DNA of 64,000 bases, from NCBI RefSeq assembly GCF_000312045.1, contig NZ_HE978634.1, forward strand, positions 801,940 through 865,939. Reading direction: 5' to 3'. This document shows, piece after piece, positions 154 to 11,630 of this stretch; positions within the stretch are counted from its first letter, which is position 1, and the number at the start of each line of letters is the position of its first letter. Under the pieces are notes generated by a model. The model had not been told where the DNA came from, did not search any database, and saw only the letters and a program-made list of their open reading frames with translations. The position numbers and the translations under genes were made by a program. This DNA comes from Noviherbaspirillum massiliense JC206. Its GTDB lineage: Bacteria; Pseudomonadota; Gammaproteobacteria; Burkholderiales; Burkholderiaceae_D.

Positions 154-241
154 GTAGGGTGCGCCATGCGCACCAGTTATCGGGAAGGGCTGAATCAGCT
201 ACCTGAACCGAAAGAGGAATGGTGCGCATGGCGCACCCTAC
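154..241. repeat. Interspersed palindromic repeat, copy 1
   Basis: An 88 bp element starting GTAGGGTGCGCCATGCGCAC and ending in the inverted form GGTGCGCATGGCGCACCCTAC-like end. The ends are about 12 bp inverted repeats and each end is itself a small palindrome (GTGCGCnnnGCGCAC). The middle holds a conserved AACCGAAAGAGGAATGGTG block. Five copies occur in the window. The form suggests a REP/MITE-like element moved by an unseen transposase. Confidence 0.85.
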
Positions 242-310
242 ACTGTCGGGTCGCAGCTAACGCGCACGGTGAGATGTTGGATCTGGCCCAACCCACGAAC
301 GCCAAATTCT

Positions 311-387: not shown

Positions 388-403
388 TGGCATGCGCATT
401 GCT
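388..403 (+). promoter_or_regulatory. Sigma-54 (-24/-12) type promoter of the small peptide gene
   Basis: TGGCATGCGCATTGCT matches the RpoN consensus TGGCACG-N4-TTGCW at all but one position, with the invariant GG (389-390) and GC (401-402) at the correct spacing. It lies 76 bases (from the GC) before the ATG at 477. The peptide gene at 11442 has an equivalent box at the identical distance, which supports function. Confidence 0.65.
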
Positions 404-414
404 CAATACCTTCC

Positions 415-434
415 CGAACATGGCGACATGTTCG
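415..434 (+). promoter_or_regulatory. Perfect inverted repeat in the 5' leader
   Basis: CGAACATG-GCGA-CATGTTCG is a perfect 8 bp inverted repeat with a 4-base loop, just downstream of the predicted transcription start. It can be an RNA hairpin in the leader or an operator. The leader of the related gene at 11442 has a hairpin at almost the same offset. Confidence 0.6.
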
Positions 435-476
435 ATGTGAACCACCAACCATTCATTTACTTTCAGGAGAAGCACG

Positions 477-653
477 ATGACTACGCTCGTAATCAAGGAT
501 CTGATCAAGCACGAGGAACTGGACCACGAGGCGATGATTGCCATTCGTGGCGGGATCATAGGCGGCTGCGGCTATTTTTACGGAGGCATGACGGTACAGG
601 AAGCCGTTGAAACGTTTGTCTGCCGCGCCGGGCAAGCGAGCCACAGCCGCTAA
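477..653 (+). CDS. Small double-glycine-leader (bacteriocin-like) peptide precursor
   Basis: A 58-residue protein starting MTTLVIKDL with a leader ending in AMIAIRGG (GG at residues 25-26). This looks like the double-glycine leaders cut by C39-peptidase ABC exporters; leaders with an ELDxxAM-xxxRGG pattern occur in small peptide families of Beta- and Gammaproteobacteria. The predicted mature part is 32 residues, glycine-rich at its start (IIGGCGYFYGG) with two cysteines (31 and 49) that could form a disulfide. A strong Shine-Dalgarno (AGGAGA, 465-470) sits six bases before the ATG, and a sigma-54-type promoter lies at 388-403. No exporter, immunity gene or modification enzyme is adjacent. Repeat copies flank the gene on both sides (154-241, 667-753). 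The toxin or signal role is inference; it is confidently a translated small gene of the double-glycine type. Confidence 0.75.
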   Translation: MTTLVIKDLIKHEELDHEAMIAIRGGIIGGCGYFYGGMTVQEAVETFVCRAGQASHSR

Positions 654-5524: not shown

Positions 5525-5616
5525 GTAGGGTGCGTCACGCGCACCAATTTGGAAAAGGATATGGGCCAAGTATAACGACGGTCGAGGAGGAAAATGGTGC
5601 GCGTGGCGCACCCTAC
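5525..5616. repeat. Interspersed palindromic repeat, copy 5
   Basis: A 92 bp copy starting GTAGGGTGCGTCACGCGCAC and ending GTGGCGCACCCTAC. The core is more diverged than in copies 1-4 and only the ends are well conserved. It lies between the Oxidored-like gene and the 3' end of the AT-rich ATPase gene. Confidence 0.8.
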
Positions 5617-5643: not shown

Positions 5644-7806
5644 TTAAGCGTTGAGATCTTTAACATCTTTATAAAGTTTCTTTAGATGTTCAGGCGCCAT
5701 GTCTAATATTGGCTCATACATAAATGAATTTAAGTGTATGTTTTCTGGCGTCATTAGATTTACCTGCTCGAGCAAAGCTATTGGTCCGAGATCAAGTGGA
5801 TATTTGGCTTTGAACCGTGTGAGCAATTTCGCTGTTTGGTTTTCTGCTATTCCATCTACAAAGTTTTGATCTCCTATCTTTTTAATCATAAATTCTTCTG
5901 CAAGAAGACGTATGGCAATAGATAGAATTATTTTGCTCTCAAGCTCGGCAGTGGCATCTGGCTCAATCAAAATCTCTTCCGCAAGTTCAAAAAGTAGATC
6001 AATAACGTAGCGATCTGAATTGACCAATGAAAGATTAGCTTTGTCTTTGAGGATAGAGCGATATATTGTTTCGAGGTCTTTAATCGTAATACTTTTAGTG
6101 CTTACCTTGAGATGAAGTAAGCATGTCAATTTTAGAAATTCATCTTCGTATCCGCAGTATTCCGCAAGATTTCGAACGAAAGGGATTGCTGATACTACAA
6201 AGCGATGATTTGCAAAATTTTTCTTCCAATGTTCAAACGGATTTTTTTGGTATATCTCTTGTACCAACTTAAGATCCCTACCGTTCTTTACAGCGAATAG
6301 GCGATTTTGTCTGGGAATGCCCAGTCGGCTGGAAATGGTTCTATGGAAGTCGAAGTTATGAGTCAAAAATATGGAATAGAACTCGCCTGCTTCGGAGATT
6401 TCTTTTAAATACTCAACTATTGCGTATTTGTTCTTGTAGTCAAATGAGTCCGCTATATCGTCGACTACAAGAATTGTTTTAAGTCCTTGACGCTTTCTTG
6501 CCGTTAGGTCGAACAGGATATTTAAGATATATAGGGCTCTTTTTTCGCCTTGGCTTAATACTTTAAGCAAAGAATTACGGTCCACTTTGCTTGATACTTC
6601 ATGGTCATAGAAGGTGAAGACAATTTGCGGGATAGATCCCTTCAAAATCACATCGTCTTGGTTTGAAATAGAAATCTTAAAGGGGACTGTAAACCTTTTA
6701 TTAAATATTTCTACCACGTCCTCCCAAGCGGTTCTTTCACTTTTAGCTGCATTGATAGCAGCCTGAATGATTCCTTTACTGACTCTATATTCATTTATGA
6801 GTTCGGAATAGAGATCACGTTGATTTGCTAAATATGAAATCCAAATCTCTTTTTGTAGTTTTTTGTAGTCGGATAGATCTGCAACTATCTCTTTGTGCTC
6901 GAATAAATAGTCCCTAAATCTACGTAGTTCCACGTTCGATAACTTTTTATCGATGGCATCAAATTTTTTCTCGAGTTCAGCGTTACATAAAATTCGCTTT
7001 TTCTCTTCTTCGATTTTTTCATTGAAAAGTTCAGCGGAAATAATTTCTTCCTTATTTTTTCCGTTGAAGAGATTAACCGTGTGATTTGCGGAAAAAAATC
7101 CGTTATCGACCAGATTTTTTTGGACTGTCTTCGCGTGGAAGTGATTAAAACTCTTCTTCAAAAGAGATGAACTGGCTAATAGTTCATTGTAGGTTTCAAT
7201 GTACTCTTTGAGCTCAGTTTGAATTTTTCCCGACTCCAGAAATCCTATCGTTTTATCGTTAAAGAGCTCGGCGTATGAAATGAGTGAAAGTCTAGTATTT
7301 TCAGGTACGCCTACTTTCTCTTCAAGTTCCTCGAAAATCTCAAATATCGAGTCCTTCTGAAAGCACTTCCGCAGTTCGATTTCTGGGGTAACAGCTCTTC
7401 CGGTAAGTCCCGAAAGCTGTTTAAGCTTCGTTATTAATGAGTCTTTTTTCTTCTCGATCTTCAGGACTGCTTCGTCGTAAGTTTTTTTAACAGCTTGATT
7501 AACAACGAGTAATGAAACCTTGTCAGAGCTAAAGTCTTGGTTATATGGCTCAATAACAAAAATATCGTCGCCCTTAATTTCAATGCCGTTTTCGTCTTGA
7601 ATTAACCGCGTTGATAACCGCTCAGGAAAAATTACATCTCCAGTGGGGAGGCCCTTACTAGCATCAGAAAACGTTTTGGAAAAGGACGTTTTCATAAAGC
7701 CATTTGGCGCATAGACCGAATACACTTTCTTATCTTTGAAGTGGAAGTCGTGTGTCAACTGACGAATGCCATAACAGCTTTCGAATCTCACAGACAATGT
7801 CTTCAC
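5644..7806 (-). CDS. SMC/RecF-like AAA ATPase, candidate phage-defence or nuclease-linked ATPase
   Basis: A 720-residue ABC/SMC-type ATPase. The Walker A region reads YAPNGFMKTSF (residues 32-42), where both usual glycines are altered but K39-T40 are kept. A long, charged, probably coiled-coil region follows (about 90-390). Then come the ABC-type signature LSQGEKRALY (about 405-415), a Walker B ILVVDDIADSFD with the family's DD in place of DE, and an H-loop FLTHNFDF. The last 230 residues have no recognised motif and could hold an effector. ATPases of this build occur in anti-phage systems (RloC/PrrC/OLD-like), but no toxin motif was identified. The gene is clearly AT-richer than its neighbours, which suggests horizontal acquisition. 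It stands alone between a repeat and the glnS terminator. Confidence 0.75.
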   Translation of the reverse strand: MKTLSVRFESCYGIRQLTHDFHFKDKKVYSVYAPNGFMKTSFSKTFSDASKGLPTGDVIFPERLSTRLIQDENGIEIKGDDIFVIEPYNQDFSSDKVSLLVVNQAVKKTYDEAVLKIEKKKDSLITKLKQLSGLTGRAVTPEIELRKCFQKDSIFEIFEELEEKVGVPENTRLSLISYAELFNDKTIGFLESGKIQTELKEYIETYNELLASSSLLKKSFNHFHAKTVQKNLVDNGFFSANHTVNLFNGKNKEEIISAELFNEKIEEEKKRILCNAELEKKFDAIDKKLSNVELRRFRDYLFEHKEIVADLSDYKKLQKEIWISYLANQRDLYSELINEYRVSKGIIQAAINAAKSERTAWEDVVEIFNKRFTVPFKISISNQDDVILKGSIPQIVFTFYDHEVSSKVDRNSLLKVLSQGEKRALYILNILFDLTARKRQGLKTILVVDDIADSFDYKNKYAIVEYLKEISEAGEFYSIFLTHNFDFHRTISSRLGIPRQNRLFAVKNGRDLKLVQEIYQKNPFEHWKKNFANHRFVVSAIPFVRNLAEYCGYEDEFLKLTCLLHLKVSTKSITIKDLETIYRSILKDKANLSLVNSDRYVIDLLFELAEEILIEPDATAELESKIILSIAIRLLAEEFMIKKIGDQNFVDGIAENQTAKLLTRFKAKYPLDLGPIALLEQVNLMTPENIHLNSFMYEPILDMAPEHLKKLYKDVKDLNA

Positions 7807-11188: not shown

Positions 11189-11250
11189 CTTTTGGGCGAG
11201 GCGGAGGCATCCGCGCTGTTGCTGCCGTCCTGACAGCGGGCATTGGTGTG

Positions 11251-11265
11251 TTGGCCGGGTGCCAA
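11251..11265 (+). promoter_or_regulatory. Inverted repeat upstream of second sigma-54-type promoter
   Basis: TTGGC-CGGGT-GCCAA lies about 100 bp upstream of the -24/-12 box, the usual place for an enhancer-binding site of a sigma-54 activator. It is a weak call based on symmetry and position. Confidence 0.3.
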
Positions 11266-11352: not shown

Positions 11353-11368
11353 AGGCACGGGCTTTGCG
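11353..11368 (+). promoter_or_regulatory. Sigma-54 (-24/-12) type promoter of second small peptide gene
   Basis: AGGCACGGGCTTTGCG matches TGGCACG-N4-TTGCW at all but the two end positions, with the invariant GG (11354-11355) and GC (11366-11367). The GC is 76 bases before the ATG at 11442, the same distance as at the gene at 477. Confidence 0.65.
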
Positions 11369-11441: not shown

Positions 11442-11630
11442 ATGCAGACCATCATCATTCAGGACCTGCACCGGACTGTCATCAATCAGCATGAACTGAC
11501 AGGCAGGCAAACAGTGCACATCACCGAAGTTCGGGGATCGGATCCCGGATTCGACGTGCTTCATCAACTGGCGGATGTCTTTGCCAAGCCCTTCGACCTG
11601 AACATCGTGTTCAGGAACGGGAAGTGGTGA
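11442..11630 (+). CDS. Small peptide precursor related to the double-glycine peptide at 477
   Basis: A 62-residue protein starting MQTIIIQDLHRT, which resembles the MTTLVIKDL start of the peptide at 477. A possible processing site, ITEVRGS (G32-S33), matches the AIRGG of the other peptide; C39 peptidases accept GG, GA and in some families GS. The predicted mature part (29 residues, from DPGFDVLHQL) is amphipathic, without cysteines, and ends in FRNGKW. The Shine-Dalgarno CAGGAGA sits six bases before the ATG, in nearly the same context as the other gene. Upstream is a sigma-54-type promoter at the same distance. The product and its export are inferred. Confidence 0.65.
   Translation: MQTIIIQDLHRTVINQHELTGRQTVHITEVRGSDPGFDVLHQLADVFAKPFDLNIVFRNGKW

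Follow-up and report, generated by a model that had tools for sequence, protein, structure and literature searches.

The gene for a 58-residue peptide at positions 477 to 653 of the window, by which we mean the whole 64,000-nucleotide stretch of Noviherbaspirillum massiliense JC206 analysed here, is likely, judged on sequence, to be a dispersed cargo gene of an RpoN-dependent regulon of C39-exported peptides. Scattered members of this family of double-glycine (GG) peptides probably share an on-switch and one exporter encoded elsewhere. A first-pass annotation of the window had claimed a -24/-12 box, an 8 bp leader hairpin, an AGGAGA ribosome site and a 58-residue peptide with a leader ending in AMIAIRGG. 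Each of these was found again, and a probable upstream activator-like site (UAS) lies ahead of them:

244..280, plus strand: probable UAS, TGTCGGGTCGCAGCTAACGC-gcacggtga-GATGTTGG, matrix score 12.0 bits, 144 nt upstream of the -24 box
388..403, plus strand: sigma-54 -24/-12 promoter, TGGCATGCGCATTGCT, exact consensus match
415..434, plus strand: 5' leader hairpin, CGAACATG-gcga-CATGTTCG, perfect 8-bp stem with a GCGA loop
465..470, plus strand: ribosome-binding site, AGGAGA
477..653, plus strand: 58-aa GG peptide precursor, ATG at 477, stop at 651-653
477-554, plus strand: leader, residues 1-26, ending AMIAIRGG at residue 26
555-650, plus strand: predicted mature part, residues 27-58, with two Cys; cleavage after GG is predicted from the leader type

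The box carries the GG and GC elements 10 bp apart and has no mismatch to TGGCAYGNNNNTTGCW, a sequence with 7 exact sites in the 4,188,269-base genome. With up to one mismatch allowed there are 63+60 genomic sites, as against 26+19 when the pattern is reversed. The transcript start is predicted by convention at about 414, which is 12 bases past the -12 C, which puts the beginning of the hairpin near +2. AGGAGA-like sites, as judged by eye and uncounted, precede many other starts in the family. The precursor reads MTTLVIKDLIKHEELDHEAMIAIRGG/IIGGCGYFYGGMTVQEAVETFVCRAGQASHSR and has RGG at residues 24-26, in keeping with C39-substrate leaders, which end in GG, GA or GS after about 15-30 residues. 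Peptides encoded near the C39 exporter described below have the same leader pattern, yet the window peptide is not itself N/Q-rich, unlike the array members among them. It had no match in a Pfam search (curlin repeat included), nothing above cut-off in NCBIfam, a best E of 0.08 against PDB sequences, which is chance level, and no tblastn hit in plasmid records. An AlphaFold2 model of the peptide with three relatives was uninformative (mean pLDDT 53.8) and was left unused.

The layout of this promoter recurs in the genus. Promoters of congeneric GG-peptide arrays carry the UAS motif TGTCGC-N7-CGAACAG-N10-TGTGTTGG; 15 of 21 such promoters from other genomes have it 159-161 nt ahead of the -24 box, and TTTTCAANGACTTG, which resembles an IHF site, is conserved between the UAS and the box. 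The UAS matrix was built from 15 promoters of other species, picked for TG[TC][TC]GG near -128, which 15 of the 21 congeneric promoters contain and 6 lack. With this matrix the window gene scores 12.0 bits, compared with 8.4-28.2 for the training sites when each is left out in turn; own-genome arrays score 18.3 and 27.2 bits and two lone GG genes 16.6 and 26.8. A score of 12.0 bits was reached by 17 of 2000 shuffles, which were first-order Markov samples instead of exact dinucleotide shuffles, and by 10 of the 1276 overlapping 200-bp pieces into which the window was cut, the gene's own site being among them. Boxes with at most three mismatches (GG and GC fixed) were found at -130..-50 before 29 of 86 candidate GG genes versus 5 of 86 on the reverse strand, for a range set after earlier GG-gene data had been seen. 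The control range of -430..-350 held such boxes in 14 of the 86, which probably serve, in tandem arrays, the gene that comes before. The idea that the leader hairpin and a terminator-like palindrome (~312-336) have a half-site in common and make up the activator site was also considered and dropped; the position-fixed motif of the relatives lies elsewhere.

A profile spanning the UAS to the -12 element was trained on 23 promoters of other species, with the window's own genome excluded. Among the best 150 of 1531 candidates in that genome it gave 9 matches, 7 of which precede genes for peptides with GG/GS-type leaders by a loose test that 57 of 552 window tiles and 134 of 540 random places in profile loci also pass. 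Within the same best 150 of 1531 candidates, the window gene is the weakest of the 9 (E 0.044, model positions 1-169), and two matches without a GG gene score slightly above it. Across the family, 7 of 60 genomes have matches at E<=1e-4 when the best 45 candidates per genome are scored, making 34 matches under that limit, 30 of them outside the own genome. A stricter, position-limited test found a GG gene after 25 of 26 loci drawn from these 30, some of which are training sites. By the same test, 13 of 14 loci in four genera unused in training precede a GG gene, several being near-copies within arrays. A slightly narrower form of the strict pattern occurs in 2 of 552 window tiles and in 65 of 540 random places in profile loci, the loci being rich in GG genes. 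One lone GG gene, MSTIHIHDLHNARELDAGVMAKVHGG... with box TGGCATGAAGGCTGCT (L105 ~1774-1992, G000:C2:677146), was found only through the promoter profile.

Sigma-54 control, which the first-pass annotation had proposed, gains support at the sequence level from the box, the weak candidate upstream site, an rpoN gene (the one Sigma54_DBD gene in the genome) and an activator gene. The annotation had also stated that the peptide lacks a local exporter or immunity gene. None is recognised beside the peptide gene, nor is an activator, although an unlinked or unrecognised immunity gene is possible; however, a genome search for a C39-peptidase ABC transporter and an RpoN activator, which it had suggested, located both, adjoining one another on the second replicon. 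Three Peptidase_C39 matches are present, all outside the window, one of them in the exporter and the others in open frames of ~250-260 aa. The exporter, 1019 aa long, has two cNMP-binding matches and C39 (E 5e-40), membrane and ABC domains, and its C39 domain keeps DCGAAC...H...DP, which fits the C39 catalytic motif DCG...H...DP. It sits between a PPIase gene and the sigma-54 activator gene, the latter directly downstream. This activator (Sigma54_activat 9e-70) has a short N-terminus and a weak Fis-type HTH match, and it is one of 13 Sigma54_activat matches in the genome, nine of them full-length. Because nine full-length matches exist, the exporter-linked activator remains a candidate; naming it rests on linkage and on its presence together with the UAS in three other genera. 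The own-genome exporter stretches scanned gave no UAS above 13.5 bits, while one precedes the corresponding genes in one Burkholderia record and in one congeneric genome, where an additional small ORF intervenes.

All 15 of the 15 congeneric genomes have the exporter (80-87% identity in those other than the own genome), and in each of them the PPIase and activator genes flank it. It was found in 2 of 250 genomes of the order, own genome included, with the best 3 candidates scored per genome, and on that count its distribution seems patchy. Six family genomes common to both searches have neither an exporter match among the best 3 candidates nor a profile match among the best 45. At ~9-30 kb from the exporter on the second replicon, within one stretch of ~34 kb, lie genes for a PP2C phosphatase, GG peptides, a Ser/Thr kinase, a caspase/FGE-sulfatase protein, two DUF4399 proteins, an FHA-GAF-HD protein, an outer-membrane factor (OMF), a two-FHA protein with no Pfam ABC domain, and HlyD. 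The FHA-GAF-HD, OMF, two-FHA and HlyD genes (L092 464-7875) adjoin a peptide cluster, so export may be phosphorylation-controlled. A GG-peptide array (L039 5291-9044, G000:C2:437-441 kb) has three members sharing TNVSVI.QNGIGNV. One scanned array peptide (L039 8574-8780) matches Curlin_rpt at E 0.0046 and 17.3 bits, below the cut-off of 20.7, and matches CsgA/CsgB models weakly, also below cut-offs. GG arrays adjoin kinase, caspase, DUF4399, OMF and HlyD genes. A single stretch in Caballeronia sp. SBC2 contains most of these gene types and ends with the exporter and activator. Activator and exporter lie near arrays in 3 of the 4 genera unused in training; the fourth is represented by an 18.8-kb contig with kinase and caspase-like pieces only.

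The first-pass annotation had made conservation of the leader in relatives a point on which its reading could fail, and a leader match was obtained in 15 of 15 genus genomes at E<=1, the best outside the own genome being 7e-7 and three reaching only 0.11-0.36. Most of these matches stop at residues 26-43 and a few extend to 52. Two long ones, when read, proved to be array peptides with N-rich mature parts, and not orthologues. A scan of named genomes gave three loci, in Caballeronia fortuita, C. hypogeia and Cupriavidus sp. Both Caballeronia peptides begin their mature part with IIGGC, as does the window peptide, and have the second Cys next to last, while the Cupriavidus peptide has the leader in common and nothing beyond. 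Among 287 GG reading frames (a redundant set) the IIGGC start was confined, under a strict pattern, to copies of the window gene itself, to which the two Caballeronia peptides are to be added. A search of 399 genomes of the order, without a positive control, gave no match to the mature part of the Caballeronia homologue. Mature parts vary widely among family members. In congeneric genomes, tandem arrays contain many GG genes whose mature parts are N/Q-rich (QSQNTLVNNGNNVAFASGITANVNPTQTGSNNINFG is one), and in the own genome the leader-type genes besides that of the window number at least 8, one with a leader that ends RGS.

The hairpin recurs as well. The highest-scoring stem immediately past the predicted start averages 13.5 over 21 distinct leaders against 9.8 +/- 0.58 in shuffles, with 0 of 500 reaching it, and 12.2 against 8.6 +/- 0.85 over nine leaders of other genera (again 0 of 500). 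The stem begins at positions 2-6 in 18 of the 21 leaders, compared with a mean of 6.5 and a maximum of 12 in 200 shuffle trials. Its variants include GAGTG/CGCTC, GAGCG/TGCTC, CGAACATG/CATGTTCG and ATGGAAAG/CTTTCCAT. Because the stems differ in sequence, pairing is favoured as the feature that is kept; the letters GAGC...GCTC are nevertheless common to many leaders, those of other genera included, so that sequence may be what is kept. A stem at the 5' end of an mRNA usually slows decay, and we infer the same role for the family hairpin, which could possibly also be a protein-binding palindrome.

In the mechanism that we propose, a sigma-54 activator, most likely the exporter-linked one, would bind at 244-280 and open the promoter at 388-403, and the mRNA would begin near 414 with the 5' hairpin. 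The leader would be recognised and the precursor cut after Gly26 by the C39 domain of the exporter with two cNMP-binding domains, and the mature peptide would be released through the HlyD/outer-membrane-factor conduit of the ~34 kb exporter stretch. The parts themselves and the promoter layout of the relatives are read directly from the DNA; the action of this activator and exporter on the gene, the cleavage and the release are what we infer. The N/Q-rich array peptides would most likely form surface or matrix material, as proposed for the EbfG proteins, with the 32-residue two-cysteine peptide of the window as minor cargo. More tentatively, and with doubts that outweigh our confidence, we suggest a previously undescribed secretion regulon in certain Burkholderiales. 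In it one RpoN activator, encoded with a cNMP-gated C39 exporter, would switch on scattered GG peptides through a position-fixed UAS and a recurring 5' hairpin. A kinase, phosphatase, FHA and caspase-like module would control export, and the cargo would build a curlin-like extracellular matrix to which peptides like that of the window add specific functions.

Among the points against placing the window gene among this dispersed cargo are its UAS, the weakest (12.0 bits, profile E 0.044), and the spacing of 144 instead of ~160. The same weak match and odd spacing would suit a gene read by another RpoN activator and drifting as a stray copy outside the regulon, which we consider unlikely. Eight further full Sigma54_activat matches are available for such a role, no congeneric peptide among the loci examined has the same mature start, and the nearby repeats, together with a gene for an IS200-like transposase, hint at mobile surroundings. 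Drift of this kind accords poorly with an intact hairpin, ribosome site and leader, and with a -24/-12 box that alone among the family promoters listed is an exact consensus. That the ORF is a chance reading frame is scarcely credible: it is short and lacks a database family, but leader, promoter box and hairpin recur in relatives, which argues that the gene is more than chance.

Two functional readings concern the mature peptide. Class II bacteriocins typically have GG leaders and C39 exporters, and both features fit a bacteriocin or microcin whose two-cysteine mature peptide kills competitors after C39 export, as do the IIGGC start and the second Cys near the C-terminus common to the two Caballeronia peptides. 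We rate this as rather unlikely. No adjacent immunity gene is recognised, the peptide has neither a Pfam match nor an NCBIfam match above cut-off, and among its regulon mates are multi-copy N/Q-rich peptides that do not resemble toxins; the toxin reading is weakened by the lack of a recognised immunity gene and by the structural appearance of the commonest relatives. Peptide pheromones use GG leaders too, and RpoN activators often end sensing pathways, so that on general knowledge both would fit a density-dependent signal read by a sensor with the RpoN activator as output. Such a circuit seems improbable here, given that the N-terminal ~95 residues of the exporter-linked activator contain no Pfam sensor or receiver domain and that mature parts differ widely across the family. 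The overall interpretation of the first-pass annotation, a regulated secreted peptide, possibly a toxin or signal, is partly supported at the level of sequence, where the C39-type leader and the C39 exporter of the genome speak for it along with the sigma-54 features.

Several known systems resemble the proposed regulon in part. Curli subunits use Sec and CsgG. The likeness to curli (CsgA/CsgB) lies in the one own-genome array peptide with weak Curlin_rpt and CsgA/CsgB scores below cut-offs; the difference is the GG leader with probable C39 export, and the window peptide has no curlin match. In Synechococcus elongatus PCC 7942, the excerpts of two reports (PMC4997328, PMC9981879) describe EbfG1-4 as small GG-leader proteins from one transcript, exported with the aid of the C39-peptidase ABC transporter PteB and needed for biofilm, with EbfG1-3 reported as prone to amyloid formation and the mechanism that switches ebfG on described as unknown in 2016. 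Several small GG-leader proteins and a C39-peptidase ABC transporter are common to both, as far as those excerpts go; unlike what they describe, here an RpoN activator gene adjoins the exporter, the cargo genes are spread across two replicons, and genes of kinase, FHA and caspase-like types accompany the exporter. HetC of Nostoc PCC 7120 likewise has a cNMP-binding domain fused to a C39-ABC exporter, and ppGpp is reported to bind this domain in vitro (PMC10986499, in part). Its substrate is unnamed in that portion of the source (PMC10986499), whereas here there are two cNMP matches, many candidate GG substrates and an activator gene. The Cdz system of Caulobacter, in the part of PMC5380434 available, has small peptides with leaders ending G[G/A/S], type I secretion and surface aggregates; the leaders and the secretion type are the likeness, and the difference is that Cdz proteins carry glycine zippers and are accompanied by cdzI. 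The latter is an immunity gene. A screen for GG peptides in Gram-negative bacteria (Dirix 2004) is cited in the portion of PMC3262810 available. Among the open-access papers listed for these subjects, judged mostly in outline, none described arrays of GG peptides under RpoN control together with such an exporter.

The exporter of a GG peptide is usually named from neighbouring genes, which leaves orphans unexplained. The promoter signature ties orphan GG peptides to a candidate activator and exporter, and because it links them, cargo can be sought genome-wide by regulation instead of by protein similarity. A small number of deletions would suffice to test the whole circuit. Should the array peptides form fibres, matrix would be built here by a route under RpoN control that bypasses the Sec pathway.

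A second likely regulon member is located within the window itself; its site at 11217 was unsuspected until the matrix scan:

11217..11254, plus strand: second UAS, 21.9 bits, the best matrix score in the window
11353..11368, plus strand: promoter-like box AGGCACGGGCTTTGCG, 2 mismatches, 136 nt after the start of the second UAS
11442..11630, plus strand: 62-aa ORF with a leader-like start, MQTIIIQDL..., ending EVRGS and not RGG

The second UAS has a profile E of 0.0013 over model positions 1-91 only, and it counts among the seven profile matches of the genome that lie ahead of leader-type genes. The ORF has no Pfam match at E<=0.5 and is possibly a divergent member of the same regulon.

The genes on either side of the peptide gene, which encode elongation factor G and a beta-lactamase-fold protein, are on the opposite strand. 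Repeats of the form GTAGGGTGCGC...GCGCACCCTAC surround it (window 154-241, 667-753, 821-907 and 975-1061, with one arm also at 5606), and L042 1781-2832 is grouped with them. The IS200-like transposase gene (L042 2066-2611; Y1_Tnp 23.8 bits, cut-off 23) may be the mobiliser of these repeats. On the minus strand, window positions 5644-7806 encode a 720-aa protein with a weak SMC_N match below cut-off.
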